Position numbers and translations under genes: made by a program
The notes under the pieces: model-generated
The model's input: only the letters and a program-made list of their open reading frames with translations
Told to the model about the DNA's origin: nothing
The model's database searches: none
Source: Actibacterium lipolyticum
Lineage (GTDB): Bacteria; Pseudomonadota; Alphaproteobacteria; Rhodobacterales; Rhodobacteraceae
Assembly (NCBI RefSeq): GCF_900184935.1
Contig: NZ_FXYE01000002.1
Location: forward strand, 62,001 to 126,000
DNA length: 64,000 nucleotides
Direction: 5' to 3'
In this document: positions 45,825 through 52,194 of the stretch, piece by piece
Layout: each line of letters starts with the position of its first letter
Numbering within the stretch: the first letter of the stretch is position 1

Positions 45825-47435
45825 CTAGGCGTTAAGCCGCGCGATGATCGCCTCTGTGTCTAACCCAGACACTGCTCCGCTGACCTGCCCACGCTCTCCG
45901 ACCACGCGGGTCGCGACATAGGCGTCAGCCACCGCGCCCGGCGCTTGGCGGATCAGCACCGACGCCGTCAGCAAAACGGCCAACCGCTCTGCAAACCAGC
46001 GCGCCTCTGCTTCGTCTGGTAACGATGGCCACCGCGCCTGATGCGCCTTCAGCGCCGCGTCGTACCGCGCATCCGTGCCCGTCGCCGCCATCAACTCTGC
46101 CTGCAACGCGTCCACTGCGGCGCTGTCACGCGCCAATGTGCGCAGGATATCAAGGCAGATGACGTTGCCCGACCCTTCCCAGATCGAATTCAAAGGGGCC
46201 TCGCGGTACAGCAACGGCAGCGGCGTATCTTCGACGTACCCCATGCCGCCCAGCACCTCCATCGCTTCGTAAATCACGACTGGCGCGCGTTTGTTGGATT
46301 GGAACTTGGCCAGTGCAACCGCAATCCGCGCAAAGGCGCGATCCTCAGCCCTCTTTCCGTCAAACGCCCGCGCCACCCGCAGGCCAAGCGCCAGCGCGCC
46401 CTCCCAATCCAGCGTCAGGTCGGCCAAAACCGACCGCATCAACGGTTGGTCAATCAAACGGCGCTGAAACGTACGCCGCCCTTCGCACCAGTGCTTTGCC
46501 TCAACCAAGGCCGCGCGCATCAACCCCGCCGGGGCCATCGCGGTATCAAGCCGCGTATGGTGGACCATTTCAATGATCGTGCGCACCCCTGCCCCTTCGT
46601 CGCCCAAACGTTCGGCAAAGGCGTTGTGATATTCGATTTCGGACGAGGCATTGGCACGGTTGCCCAGCTTATCTTTCAGTCGCATCAGATGGATGGAATT
46701 GCGGGTGCCATCCTCTAACCAGCGCGGCACGACGAAACAGGTCAGCCCCTTGTCCGTCTGCGCAAGTGTCAGGAAACCATCGCACATAGGCGCCGAACAG
46801 AACCATTTATGCCCCTTCAACCGATAACCGTCACCATCGCGCACGGCCCGCGTGGTGTTGGCACGCACGTCCGACCCGCCCTGCTTTTCGGTCATCGCCA
46901 TGCCCATCGTCGCCGAACTCTTTGCGCTCAGCGGCGCGACCTGCGGATCGTAAGAGGCCGCCGTTAGCTTCGGCTGCCACCGTTCGGCCAGCCCCGCATC
47001 GGCCTGCAACGCCGGCACCGCCGCATAGGTCATCGTCATCGGGCAACACACGCCCGGCTCAACCTGACTCATCATATAAACCATTGCGGCATGGGCGCTG
47101 TGCCCGTTCGCCGCGCCGGACCACGCAACCGAGGAATACCCGGCCTCCAATCCCAGCGACATCAACTGATGGTACGCTGGGTGAAACCTCACCTCATCCA
47201 CGCGTCGCCCCGCGCGATCAAACGTGACCAATTCAGGGGTCTGACGGTTGGCAATCCGCCCCAGCTCTCGCACCGCAGCACGGCCCAAAGTCGCCCCGAA
47301 ACCGGGCAACCCGGCAGCTTCGCCAAACATGTGCTGCCGCAATGGCGTATCGCCCTGCCAAAGATCAAAATCCCCCGGCGCACCAGGCTGATTTTCCACT
47401 TGATGGGTTGCAAGATCGCTTTGCGGGTCTGTCAT
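45825..47435 (-). CDS. AidB-like acyl-CoA dehydrogenase
   Basis: A 536-residue flavoprotein with the acyl-CoA dehydrogenase fold; MAMTEKQGGSDVRANTT and GYRLKGHKWFCSAPMCD form the FAD-binding part, and NSIWEGSGNVICLDILR is typical of AidB. Longer than usual ACADs (about 400) because of N- and C-terminal extensions. AidB in E. coli is an alkylation-response protein, but in roseobacters related proteins may be true dehydrogenases. The ATG at 47435 has AAGGGAGG upstream. Confidence 0.9.
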   Translation of the reverse strand: MTDPQSDLATHQVENQPGAPGDFDLWQGDTPLRQHMFGEAAGLPGFGATLGRAAVRELGRIANRQTPELVTFDRAGRRVDEVRFHPAYHQLMSLGLEAGYSSVAWSGAANGHSAHAAMVYMMSQVEPGVCCPMTMTYAAVPALQADAGLAERWQPKLTAASYDPQVAPLSAKSSATMGMAMTEKQGGSDVRANTTRAVRDGDGYRLKGHKWFCSAPMCDGFLTLAQTDKGLTCFVVPRWLEDGTRNSIHLMRLKDKLGNRANASSEIEYHNAFAERLGDEGAGVRTIIEMVHHTRLDTAMAPAGLMRAALVEAKHWCEGRRTFQRRLIDQPLMRSVLADLTLDWEGALALGLRVARAFDGKRAEDRAFARIAVALAKFQSNKRAPVVIYEAMEVLGGMGYVEDTPLPLLYREAPLNSIWEGSGNVICLDILRTLARDSAAVDALQAELMAATGTDARYDAALKAHQARWPSLPDEAEARWFAERLAVLLTASVLIRQAPGAVADAYVATRVVGERGQVSGAVSGLDTEAIIARLNA

Positions 47436-47602
47436 GGCACGTCCTCCCTTATGAGAAGAGTAAACCACAGGATTTCATCTTCAAAATCACGACCTAACGG
47501 CATTTTGTTACGAATTTTGGCACGCAAGGGATTCACAAGCCGAATCACTTGTGCCATCATGCTGACACCCACCCGACAAGAGGTGGTAATGAGGCAGTGA
47601 TT

Positions 47603-47953: not shown

Positions 47954-47999
47954 CTTTGGTATGAATAGTTTAATATTAAACTATTGCTCGTGACCAAAG
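47954..47999. promoter_or_regulatory. Nested inverted repeats upstream of pdhA (probable operator)
   Basis: A perfect 22-bp palindrome at 47964-47985 (core AGTTTAATATTAAACT) is flanked by CTTTGGT at 47954-47960 and ACCAAAG at 47993-47999. The centre is 37 bp before the pdhA ATG. The size and AT-rich symmetry resemble MarR-type operators, though no regulator is adjacent. Confidence 0.7.
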
Positions 48000-48011: not shown

Positions 48012-49022
48012 ATGGCCACGCGAAAAACCACTAAAAAACCAAACACTTCCAAGGAAGAGCTTCTGGGCTTTTACCGCGAAATGCTGCTGATCCGGCGATT
48101 CGAGGAAAAGGCCGGCCAACTGTACGGAATGGGCCTTATCGGCGGTTTTTGCCACCTTTACATCGGCCAAGAAGCTGTCGTCGTTGGGCTGGAAGCCGCC
48201 GCTAAAGAAGGTGACAAGCGCGTCACCTCTTACCGCGATCACGGCCACATGCTGGCCTGTGGGATGGACCCCAAGGGTGTGATGGCCGAACTGACGGGCC
48301 GCGAAGGCGGGTATTCCAAAGGTAAAGGCGGCTCCATGCACATGTTCTCGAAAGAGAAGCATTTCTATGGCGGCCACGGGATCGTTGGCGCTCAGGTGCC
48401 AATCGGTGCCGGTCTGGCCTTTTCGGACAAATACAAAGGCAACGACAACGTGACCTTCGCCTATTTCGGCGACGGTGCGGCAAACCAAGGTCAGGTTTAC
48501 GAAACCTACAACATGGCGGAACTCTGGGATCTGCCCGTGGTTTTCGTGATCGAGAATAACCAATACGCGATGGGCACCTCTGTCCAACGCTCCACCAAAT
48601 CGCCCAGCCTGTGGGAACGCGGTGCAGCATACGGCATCGAAGGTGAAGAAGTTGACGGCATGGACGTGCTGGCCGTGAAAGAGGCTGGCGAAAAGGCCGT
48701 CGCCCACTGCCGCGCGGGCAAAGGCCCCTATATCCTTGAAATCAAAACCTATCGCTATCGCGGCCACTCTATGTCGGACCCGGCGAAATACCGGACCCGC
48801 GAAGAAGTACAGAAAATGCGGGAAGAGCGGGACGCGATCGAACACGTTCGCGAACTGATCCTGACCGGCAAACACGCCAGCGAAGACGACCTGAAGGCCA
48901 TCGACAAAGACATCAAGGCCATCGTCAACGAGGCTGCTGAATTCTCTAAAGAAAGCCCCGAGCCCGCGCTCGAAGAGCTTTACACCGACATCTACGCCGA
49001 ACCGGCGACGCAAGAAGCCTGA
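48012..49022 (+). CDS. pdhA: Pyruvate dehydrogenase E1 component alpha subunit
   Basis: A 336-residue E1-alpha. It has GDGAANQGQVYETYNMAEL (thiamine diphosphate and Mg motif) and the following VIENNQYAMGTS, plus YRYRGHSMSDPAKYR. It decarboxylates pyruvate with PdhB and passes the acetyl group to E2. It is the first gene of pdhA-pdhB-(small membrane protein)-pdhC, with GGGAGCC as ribosome site after the palindromic operator. E3 (lpd) is not in the window. Confidence 0.97.
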   Translation: MATRKTTKKPNTSKEELLGFYREMLLIRRFEEKAGQLYGMGLIGGFCHLYIGQEAVVVGLEAAAKEGDKRVTSYRDHGHMLACGMDPKGVMAELTGREGGYSKGKGGSMHMFSKEKHFYGGHGIVGAQVPIGAGLAFSDKYKGNDNVTFAYFGDGAANQGQVYETYNMAELWDLPVVFVIENNQYAMGTSVQRSTKSPSLWERGAAYGIEGEEVDGMDVLAVKEAGEKAVAHCRAGKGPYILEIKTYRYRGHSMSDPAKYRTREEVQKMREERDAIEHVRELILTGKHASEDDLKAIDKDIKAIVNEAAEFSKESPEPALEELYTDIYAEPATQEA

Positions 49023-49036
49023 GGGAGATTTAACAC

Positions 49037-50392
49037 ATGGCAACCGAAATACTGATGCCCGCCCTCTCCCCCACGATGGAGGAAGGCACACTTGCAAAAT
49101 GGCTGGTCAAAGAAGGCGACACCGTCTCCTCCGGCGATATCTTGGCCGAAATTGAAACCGACAAAGCCACGATGGAATTCGAAGCTGTTGATGAAGGCAT
49201 CATCGGCAAGATCCTGATCGCGGAAGGCACCGAGGGCGTGAAGGTAAACACCGCCATCGCCGTGCTGATCGAAGAAGGCGAAGACGCAGACGCCGCCGTT
49301 GCGGCCCCTGCCCCCGCTGCTGCCGAAGCCGCGCCCGCCGCTGCCCCAGCACCGGCTCAGCCCAAGGCACCCGAGGCGGTGGTTGAACCAGAAGTTCCCG
49401 CCGGAACCGAAATGAAATCCACCACCGTACGCGAGGCTCTTCGCGATGCGATGGCCGAAGAAATGCGTCGCGATGGCGATGTATATCTGATGGGGGAAGA
49501 GGTCGCCGAATACCAAGGGGCCTACAAAATCTCTCAAGGTTTGCTGGATGAATTCGGCGCGAAACGCGTGATCGACACGCCGATCACCGAACACGGCTTT
49601 GCCGGTATCGCCGTTGGCGCGGCCTTCGGCGGGCTTAAGCCCATCGTTGAATTCATGACCTTCAACTTCGCCATGCAGGCGATTGACCACATCATCAACT
49701 CTGCCGCGAAGACGCTTTATATGTCCGGCGGTCAGATGGGCGCACCAATGGTGTTCCGTGGCCCGAACGGCGCTGCCGCCCGCGTTGGTGCTCAGCACAG
49801 CCAGGATTACGCCGCATGGTATTCGGCAATCCCCGGTCTGAAAGTGGCGATGCCCTATTCCGCAGCCGATGCAAAAGGCCTCTTGAAATCGGCAATCCGC
49901 GACCCGAACCCGGTGATCTTCCTTGAAAACGAAATCCTTTATGGCCGCGCGTTCGACGTGCCGGTGATGGATGATTTCACCGTTCCCTTCGGCAAAGCCA
50001 AAATCTGGCGCGAGGGCGAAGATGTTACCATCGTCTCCTTCGGCATTGGCATGACCTACGCGCTTGAAGCTGCGGAAGAGCTGGCCAAAGAAGGCATCAG
50101 CGCCGAGGTGATCGATCTGCGCACCCTGCGTCCGATGGACACCGAAACGGTGATCAAATCGGTGATGAAAACCAACCGCTGTGTCACGGTTGAAGAAGGG
50201 TTCCCTGTCGGCTCCATCGGCGGTCACATCTCTTCCGTACTGATGCAGCAGGCGTTCGATTACCTTGACGCGCCAGTCATCAACTGCACCGGCAAGGACG
50301 TTCCAATGCCCTATGCGGCGAACCTTGAAAAACTGGCGCTCGTGACCACGAAAGAGGTCATCGATGCCGTCAAATCCGTAACCTATCGTTAA
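49037..50392 (+). CDS. pdhB: Pyruvate dehydrogenase E1 component beta subunit with N-terminal lipoyl domain
   Basis: A 451-residue protein. Residues 1-80 form a lipoyl domain, with lipoylated K43 in ETDKATMEF; an Ala/Pro-rich linker (about 88-120) and the E1-beta transketolase-like domain follow ([27 protein letters not shown]). Fusion of a lipoyl domain to E1-beta is known for alphaproteobacteria. The domain is nearly identical to that of PdhC. Confidence 0.97.
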
Positions 50393-50402
50393 GGATCAGG
50401 CG

Positions 50403-50894
50403 ATGAACGGGACAACTGGTAAAACCAGAGGTGCCGAAGAATGGCTCTTTGAGCGGTTCGTCACCGCGAGCAAGGAAAACGACCTCAACCTACTTTGGGT
50501 CTGTGGTGGCTTCCTTATCGCCTCGTTCATCGCCGTGTCCTTTAACCTGGGTGCGATCGAAGCGGTCGAGTTCAGTGCGTTTGCAATAAAAAGCAGCCTA
50601 ACGGCCATGTGGCCGATCCGCGTCATGCTGTGCGTTGCGTGCGTCGTCGCCTATATCGCGGTCGTCTATTTGGTGCTGGAGCATCAAAAGCTGCAACTCG
50701 GTCTGGATTATCTTGCCGCAAGCAAACACGAACGCGCCGTTGAGATTGGCACGTTTGCCGCTTGGCTGGATGAAAACCACCCGCGGATGATCCGAACCCA
50801 GACTTTTGTAATCGGTGCGTTTGTCACCTTCTGCGCCGCGATTTTGGTAATCGACATTGCCACACTCGCGTTCTCTTTTTTAAAACCGAGGTAG
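50403..50894 (+). CDS. Hypothetical three-TM protein inside the pdh operon
   Basis: A 163-residue protein with three hydrophobic segments at about 30-52, 70-92 and 134-160. The N-terminus begins [19 protein letters not shown]. It sits 10 bp after pdhB and 7 bp before pdhC on the same strand, so it is surely co-transcribed. No family is recognised. It may couple the complex to the membrane, but this is only suggested by position. Confidence 0.7.
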
Positions 50895-50901
50895 AGAGAT
50901 C

Positions 50902-52194
50902 ATGCCAACCGAAATTCTTATGCCCGCCCTATCCCCAACCATGGAGGAAGGCACGCTGGCAAAATGGCTGGTCAAAGAGGGCGACACTGTCTCCTCCGGC
51001 GACCTTTTGGCCGAAATCGAAACCGACAAAGCCACGATGGAATTCGAAGCCGTGGATGAAGGTGTCGTCGGCAAAATCCTGATCCCCGAAGGCAGCGAAG
51101 GCGTGAAAGTGAACAGCCCCATCGCCATCCTTCTGGAAGATGGTGAAAGCGCGGATGACATCGGCACCGCAGCACCCAAAGCGGCCCCCGCCGCCGCGTC
51201 CGTTGCCGATGCACCAAAGGCCGAAGCCCCAGCTGCCGCACCCGCACCCGCGGCACCCAAGGCCGCTGACGGCGCGCGCGTTTTCGCATCGCCCCTCGCC
51301 CGTCGCATCGCTGCCGACAAAGGCCTCGACCTGTCGCAAGTTACCGGCACCGGCCCCAAAGGCCGCATCGTTAAGGCAGACGTCGAAGGCGCAACCGCGG
51401 CGCCCAAAGCCGCACCTGCCGCCGCTTCGGCCCCAGCCGCAACCGCACTTGCCGCGCCCGCTGGCCCGGCAACCGACACCGTCCTCAAAATGTATGCGGA
51501 TCGCGAGTTTGAAGAGGTCAAACTGGACGGGATGCGCAAAACCATCGCTGCACGCCTGACCGAAGCCAAACAAACCATCCCGCATTTCTATCTACGCCGG
51601 GATATCAAGCTCGACGCGCTTCTGAAGTTCCGCAGTCAGTTGAACAAACAGCTGGAACCACGCGGCGTGAAACTGTCGGTCAACGACTTCATCATCAAAG
51701 CCTGCGCGATTGCCCTTCAACAAGTGCCCGAAGCCAACTCCGTCTGGGCCGGTGATCGCGTGCTGAAACTGAAACCTTCCGATGTCGCCGTTGCTGTCGC
51801 CATCGAAGGTGGCCTGTTCACGCCGGTCCTGAAAGACTCCGACAAGAAATCGCTCTCTGCCCTCTCGGCCGAAATGAAAGACCTCGCCTCCCGCGCGCGC
51901 GACCGCAAACTTGCGCCACACGAATATCAGGGCGGCAGCTTTGCCATTTCGAACCTTGGCATGTTTGGGATCGACAATTTCGACGCGGTCATCAACCCAC
52001 CTCACGGCGGCATCCTTGCGGTTGGCGCGGGCGTGAAGAAACCGGTTGTTGGCGATGATGGCGAACTAAGCGTGGCAACGGTGATGTCAGTCACCCTGTC
52101 GGTCGATCACCGGGTCATCGACGGCGCACTTGGTGCCGAACTTCTGAAAGCAATCGTGGATAATCTGGAAAACCCAGTCACGATGCTGGCCTAA
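50902..52194 (+). CDS. pdhC: Dihydrolipoyllysine acetyltransferase (pyruvate dehydrogenase E2)
   Basis: A 430-residue protein with one lipoyl domain (1-80, K43 in ETDKATMEF), an Ala/Pro linker, a peripheral-subunit binding domain ([18 protein letters not shown]) and an acyltransferase domain whose catalytic histidine is in [11 protein letters not shown]. It forms the core of the complex and makes acetyl-CoA. A second Ala/Pro linker follows the binding domain. A terminator comes 10 bp after the stop. Confidence 0.97.

Follow-up and report, generated by a model that had tools for sequence, protein, structure and literature searches.

The Rhodobacteraceae include laboratory models such as R. sphaeroides and P. 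denitrificans as well as many marine bacteria. Control over how much C4-acid carbon passes via pyruvate into acetyl-CoA has so far been ascribed to CceR by way of a pooled motif. CceR (RSP_1663 in R. sphaeroides) is a LacI-family regulator of central carbon metabolism which, in the accessible part of Imam et al. 2015 (PMC4344238), is predicted to regulate malic enzyme and PdhAB with RSP_2968 as well as mdh, pckA, sdh, zwf and others, through the motif [A/G/T]GTT-N6-8-AAC[A/C/T], which falls into two clusters differing in spacer. PdhR is tabulated for six groups in the available part of another source, which does not mention Rhodobacterales for PdhR (PMC5343134). The titles and abstract openings of the literature, among which subscription journals are thinly covered, name no MarR regulator of pdh in Rhodobacteraceae, and PMC4263372 makes no mention of MarR, pyruvate dehydrogenase or malic enzyme. 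Here we describe a palindrome at the pdhA promoter of Actibacterium lipolyticum that is probably the operator of such a MarR protein, encoded away from the pdh genes.

A perfect palindrome precedes pdhA

The window, by which we mean the whole 64-kb stretch of A. lipolyticum DNA that was analysed, contains the following features.

47954-47999, no strand: CTTTGGT (47954-47960) and ACCAAAG (47993-47999), an inverted pair probably lying outside the operator
47964-47985, no strand: perfect 22-bp palindrome, the predicted operator, with the conserved 18-bp core TAGTTTAATATTAAACTA at 47966-47983
48012-49022, plus strand: pdhA, pyruvate dehydrogenase (PDH) E1 alpha, 336 aa (TIGR03182, 514.8 bits), the predicted first regulated gene
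49037-50392, plus strand: pdhB, E1 beta with an N-terminal lipoyl domain
50902-52194, plus strand: pdhC, E2 dihydrolipoamide acetyltransferase

The original prediction of a perfect 22-bp palindrome ending 26 bases before the pdhA ATG was confirmed: the arms AATAGTTTAAT (47964-47974) and ATTAAACTATT (47975-47985) are 100% complementary with no gap, and the ATG at 48012 lies 28 bp after the core. There is no other perfect palindrome with arms of at least 8 bp in the window. First-order Markov sequences (n = 200) contained on average 1.7 palindromes when the arms were 8 bp long and 0.045 when they were 11 bp long, and the core with up to three mismatches was matched once in the window and never in 100 shuffles. 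A chance origin of the palindrome is unlikely.

The same prediction had the CTTTGGT/ACCAAAG pair enclosing the palindrome as a second repeat. The pair is present, and it is probably there by chance rather than as part of the conserved site, since its centre is 2 bp off the palindrome dyad, it occurs in the window's promoter alone among 63 promoters (the window's counted), and pdhA of Actibacterium naphthalenivorans lacks it. An exact 7-bp inverted pair of whatever sequence, placed within 22 bp to either side of the site, was found in 4 of the 63. As a second site the flanking repeat was rejected, being off-centre and not conserved.

No regulator gene adjoins pdh among its identified neighbours in the window. 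An AidB-type acyl-CoA dehydrogenase gene lies upstream of the pdh region (45825-47468, minus strand), and a 163-aa open reading frame without a Pfam match separates pdhB from pdhC (50403-50894, plus strand), a position at which P. ferrooxidans has no gene.

The site recurs before lpd and maeB

The original prediction had proposed looking for the palindrome before other genes of the genome. With up to three mismatches the A. lipolyticum genome contains exactly three sites, which precede pdhA, lpd and maeB with core-to-start distances of 28, 23 and 18 bp, respectively. The lpd product is a 464-aa PDH E3 (TIGR01350, 564 bits) and maeB encodes malic enzyme. Across the Rhodobacteraceae, 63 of 71 distinct examined sites lie before pdhA (25), lpd (19) or maeB (19), in a non-random set made up of best matches and chosen loci, from which 14 duplicates were removed and nothing was dropped for length; one further maeB site with two mismatches (L009) stands outside this count. 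The distance to the start codon is 15-41 bp in 60 of the 63, with a median of 23.

At least one site with no more than one mismatch to TAGTTYANNNNTRAACTA was found in 124 of 149 Rhodobacteraceae genomes. A loose scan with TAGTTYANNNNTRAACTA gave 310 matches against 187 for a reversed control and, because of this background, we relied upon gene position. The site was present in 19 of 21 named genomes, the strict form being missing from Paracoccus sp. IB05 and Pseudogemmobacter bohemicus; 18 of the 19 loci lie before pdhA, lpd or maeB and the remaining one (L343) is at an acg operon. Both Paracoccus denitrificans and P. ferrooxidans carry TAGTTTAACGCTGAACTA before pdhA. In one family genome (G195) a perfect copy (L358, 1501-1518) is found 41 bp before aceE, which encodes the homodimeric PDH E1 (a 486-aa part scores 782 bits against TIGR00759, whose curated whole-protein cut-off is 860). 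This enzyme catalyses the same reaction as the pdhA-type E1 from an unrelated sequence, so its site supports a role in pyruvate oxidation. Taken together, the comparisons indicate that the site is a genuine and widely conserved predicted operator. A lack of conservation before pdhA in the closest genomes had been named in advance as the outcome that would speak against the proposal; the palindrome is conserved there. The idea that an unknown regulator acts on pyruvate dehydrogenase is supported, and its predicted reach extends to lpd and maeB, which had not been seen at the outset. The failure of C. sphaeroides pdh mutants to grow on lactate and malate, and the possibility that rsp_2968 is the E3, both reported in the accessible part of PMC12632250, fit the logic of such a regulon.

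The other eight of the 71 sites lie elsewhere (L008, L015, L042, L043, L056, L077, L079 and L086), with no MarR-type DNA-binding protein in the frames listed for them. Three of these are exact matches at positions 1501-1518 of their loci: before a 96-aa gene without an NCBIfam match (L008), between two convergent genes (L015) and at the end of a small gene (L043). A weak match (L086) precedes a gene for a sigma-54-type response regulator that is itself below the NCBIfam cut-off.

The operator may cover the -10 region

In 17 of 19 lpd promoters a TTG begins 18 bp before the 18-bp core, a feature found at that position in none of 25 pdhA and 2 of 19 maeB promoters. This TTG would place the -10 within the site, as TTTAAY with a 15-bp spacer or TAAYRY with a 17-bp spacer, and suggests that the lpd site covers the -10 in the manner of a repressor operator. 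By analogy, the same overlap may hold at pdhA and maeB. For the window this gives one further feature.

47969-47976, plus strand: possible -10 inside the operator, TTTAAT (47969-47974) or TAATAT (47971-47976), as read across from the lpd promoters

No match to a sigma-70 consensus and no good -35 were found at the window's pdhA. The promoter-proximal half of the site is the stricter one, with A7 present in all 63 sites (its mirror base in 55) and A8 in 57 (its mirror base in 31). It is solely from the position of the site that we infer repression.

A MarR protein encoded in trans co-occurs with the site

The candidate regulator (L096) is a 147-aa MarR protein encoded in trans to pdh (G000:C10:1571834-1572274, minus strand). 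Its gene directly follows one for a Nit-type amidase (PF00795), which is itself preceded by an apparent glutaredoxin gene, and an apparent ubiG is convergent (both named by eye). The protein scores 44.3 bits against PF12802 (cut-off 27) and 28.0 against PF01047 (cut-off 24.6), and no NCBIfam family comes near its cut-off. The DNA-binding part is nearly invariant in 32 orthologous sequences, from which a model of an 84% identical orthologue was built with a pLDDT of 92.5 (the best of five; the others scored 55-64); the model has a MarR fold, and the nearest PDB structures, of MarR-family proteins, include MarR, ST1710 and MftR, some with DNA. The 147-aa protein contains no cysteine, making a thiol switch unlikely, and our guess is that it responds to how well the pyruvate node is supplied with carbon. 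No site with up to one mismatch was found in 744 kb around the orthologous marR genes, such that the assignment of this MarR to the site is not anchored by autoregulation.

Orthologues of L096, called at E 1e-15, are present in 128 of the 149 genomes, with one genome (G152) counted as negative by elimination and another (G009) as positive on a 39% acg paralogue alone. Site and MarR occur together in 118 genomes, MarR alone in 10, the site alone in 6 and neither in 15 (Fisher p 8e-10, not corrected for descent). We then sought pdhA in 30 genomes, namely all 25 without the site and five of the six that have the site and no MarR, and 19 promoters were read. Seven MarR-positive, site-negative genomes have pdhA, and in six of these (G149, G024, G087, G090, G065 and G155) there is a degenerate pdhA site with 2-4 mismatches in 14, which in G024 is followed after 41 bp by an in-frame ATG that itself precedes the aligned start. 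The seventh (G021) is doubtful, having only a 5-mismatch match that is no better than some negatives. Among the seven MarR-negative genomes that are 97-99% complete and have a readable pdhA promoter (G005, G015, G030, G073, G084, G108 and G134) there is no pdhA site, the best matches having 5-8 mismatches; G009 likewise has none, and in G110 the pdhA start lies outside its locus. The MarR-negative genomes that do have a pdhA site are G034 (74% complete) and G093, G103 and G121 (76-83% complete).

In MarR-negative genomes (here including G009 and G150), 26 of 27 maeB and lpd promoters gave no match better than 5 mismatches, the exception being the lpd promoter of G030 with 4. Two MarR-negative genomes of 97% completeness (G018 and G084) have strict matches somewhere, none of them at a readable pdhA, maeB or lpd. 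Of the seven MarR-positive genomes with a degenerate or doubtful pdhA site, two have a clear maeB site and one an lpd site, which argues against a rigid three-gene regulon. In a PdhA tree (44 rows, 40 labelled), loss of MarR amounts to six changes, or five without G009 and G110, with only two independent pairs on well-supported branches. This tree, in which site and MarR carry identical labels, counts events and not agreement, and it suggests that MarR losses were independent.

No pdhA was found at E 1e-60 in nine genomes (G018, G072, G079, G091, G096, G119, G147, G150 and G152), G123 and G127 have pdhA homologues of only 38-41%, and in nine of these genomes (all but G147 and G123) no lpd was found at E 1e-130. 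Seven of these (G018, G072, G079, G091, G096, G119 and G152) lack a close pdhA, a close lpd and the MarR, implying another type of PDH; six of the seven have a close maeB, and G079 has only a 56% homologue.

Recognition helix and operator vary together in acg-marR operons

A genome outside the family (G039) carries two copies of the palindrome before an operon of acg and marR. Its MarR is 49.5% identical to L096 over 109 aa, the recognition helices of the two being TKGAMTNTLQKLE and TRGAMTNTLGKLE. A class-wide scan found palindrome matches in 18 of 289 genomes, and the 16 new loci comprise eight with acg-marR, two with pdhA, one with aceE and five without any of these nearby. Including G039 there are nine acg-marR loci outside the Rhodobacteraceae, from five families with several from one genus (Acg similarity is weak, at 27%, in L362), and every one of the nine has two palindromes with up to three mismatches. 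The helix, readable in seven of them from four families, is always QVT[KR]GA[MI]TNT.

Within the family we compared 20 paralogous marR loci (L264-L282 with acg; L283, from G150, with no acg neighbour). A different helix is present in 18 of the 20, which is PKT[ST]M[ST]HT in 15, a variant in two and unreadable in one, and in the 17 readable promoters of these 18 the best match to the palindrome has at least 5 mismatches in 14. Where the helix is of the PKT[ST]M[ST]HT type, the operator of the acg paralogues, read by eye, is mostly TAGTnCGATATCGnACTA (the L274 promoter being incomplete), whereas the acg paralogue of G009 combines the helix TKGAMTNT with TGGTTTAGCGTTCAACCA. Helix variants therefore track operator variants, TRGAMTNT-type, as in L096, on the one hand and PKT-type, such as PKTTMTHT, on the other, such that the two appear to change together. 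We propose that TAGTnCGATATCGnACTA and PKT[ST]M[ST]HT constitute a second, distinct MarR specificity beside Acg-family FMN oxidoreductases. What interests us most in these data is that helix and operator have changed as a pair between the pyruvate-node MarR and the acg paralogues.

The G150 protein is a 43% MarR relative whose helix is NVTRGAMSNT; its genome has no pdhA, no lpd and no strict site.

Other readings of the palindrome

That the palindrome is instead a site of the LacI-family CceR we regard as unlikely, even though its core TTAACGTTAA resembles a LacI site. LacI sites typically need a central CG, which is present in only 25 of the 63 sites and is replaced by TA in that of the window. 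The 6-bp-spacer LacI-type motif, which we take to be TGTTANCGNTAACA, is present in 70 of the 149 genomes; A. lipolyticum is not among them, having three 8-bp-spacer sites and no exact TGTTANCGNTAACA site. None of 30 loci with TGTTANCGNTAACA contains pdhA, lpd or maeB, and the motif is found before gap (L376, G152) and pyruvate kinase (L391, G110) in two genomes that are both MarR-negative. On the other side, AGTT-N8-AACT, the 8-bp class of the published CceR motif, is the window palindrome, and the CceR prediction covers malic enzyme, PdhAB and RSP_2968, in the accessible part of PMC4344238. The different company kept by the two spacer classes favours two regulators, with the 8-bp class forming a separate MarR regulon. 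A regulator described originally as unknown can now be given a MarR reading, with support, although that description had overlooked that CceR was already predicted for R. sphaeroides.

Other regulator families also bind 18-bp palindromes. The motif alone names no protein family, and co-occurrence rests on few well-supported independent losses, so a different dimeric regulator (another MarR, or a TetR, XRE or ROK protein) could bind while the Nit-linked MarR merely co-varies. This seems quite improbable, given that the match of helix to operator in the acg-marR operons is independent of co-occurrence and that, of 16 MarR matches over the Pfam cut-off in the A. lipolyticum genome, the first 12 inspected include only one, L096, with a TRGAMTNT-type helix. 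The original prediction had envisaged a dimer of MarR- or GntR-like type. The evidence favours MarR; GntR operator types typically have a shorter spacing than the GT-N10-AC of the palindrome, and for this reason a GntR reader is not favoured. XRE regulators of the ScfR/RamB type, considered for their role in acetyl-CoA metabolism, were set aside because the shape of the motif, a single inverted repeat, does not fit; RamB has two near-identical boxes with an 18-bp spacer, according to the available part of PMC10370305. The A. lipolyticum genome encodes two long XRE proteins, for which no link to the palindrome was established. PhaR was discarded on its motif, which is unlike the palindrome.

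A hairpin acting in the 5'-UTR of the mRNA (7-bp stem, 4-base loop) instead of a DNA operator is scarcely credible. The sites do lie in a possible mRNA leader, and folding of the window sequence gives -19.9 kcal/mol (z -2.6, with 5 of 200 shuffles equally good). Over the 63 sites, however, 21 pairs are broken when the site is read as sense and 23 when it is read as antisense, and breaks of the seventh pair (eight sites) are confined to the sense reading; this argues that pairing is not under sense-strand selection, and the hairpin was rejected. Nor does conservation extend to the outer arms, on which the stability of the window fold depends, and the upstream TTG of lpd would put the site over the -10.

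Discussion

On the basis of what was established computationally, namely the conservation of the site, the genes it precedes, where it lies and how it correlates with a regulator gene, we put a probability of about 77% on the palindrome being the operator of a MarR repressor of the route from malate through pyruvate to acetyl-CoA, and on this repressor being the 147-aa Nit-linked protein acting in trans. We infer that this protein binds the site, represses and responds to a ligand. Each TAGTTTA arm would be contacted by one winged helix of the MarR dimer, which at pdhA(BC), lpd and maeB would cover the -10 region and so block RNA polymerase, and some ligand would release it to lift the block. 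No other MarR-family repressor devoted to PDH is known to us, and this would be the first.

As to origin, we give an even chance to a history in which an acg-controlling MarR subfamily was duplicated in the Rhodobacteraceae. One copy would have kept the ancestral operator and been rewired in trans to PDH, E3 and malic enzyme (and, in one genome, aceE), while most acg copies changed both helix and operator (TTAA to CGA), thereby avoiding cross-talk. If true, this would be a natural and readable specificity swap, and the paired helices and operators would make a test case for the divergence of MarR specificity that follows a duplication. A distinct three-promoter MarR regulon would also correct the CceR map and offer a small, clean switch for metabolic engineering.

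Several described systems can be set beside this one. The predicted CceR regulon of R. sphaeroides shares malic enzyme, PdhAB and RSP_2968, and its inverted repeat covers the palindrome; in the accessible part of that work, however, spacers of 6 to 8 bp are pooled, whereas in our reading the 8-bp class belongs to MarR. An alphaproteobacterial regulator that likewise affects pdh is PhaR/AniA of Sinorhizobium meliloti, but its GC-cored motif YGCRNYGCR is unrelated and its effect on pdh is positive, according to the available part of PMC12542648. PdhR of Enterobacteria is also dedicated to the PDH operon with lpdA, as the accessible part of PMC5343134 describes, but belongs to another protein family, GntR, and malic enzyme is an extra target here. 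MarR repressors whose structures have been solved in complex with their operators (E. coli MarR, 5h3r; Sulfolobus ST1710, 3gfi; Burkholderia MftR, 8ylg) share the predicted fold, the winged helix and a palindromic operator, with 23-31% identity in structural alignments; the candidate differs in its predicted central-metabolism targets in trans and in having no cysteine. The acg-marR operons (Acg FMN oxidoreductase NF047509 plus MarR) encode regulators of the same MarR subfamily and, outside the Rhodobacteraceae, carry the same palindrome. These differ in being controlled locally, each operon through two sites, and in that most of the Rhodobacteraceae paralogues have another helix and another operator.
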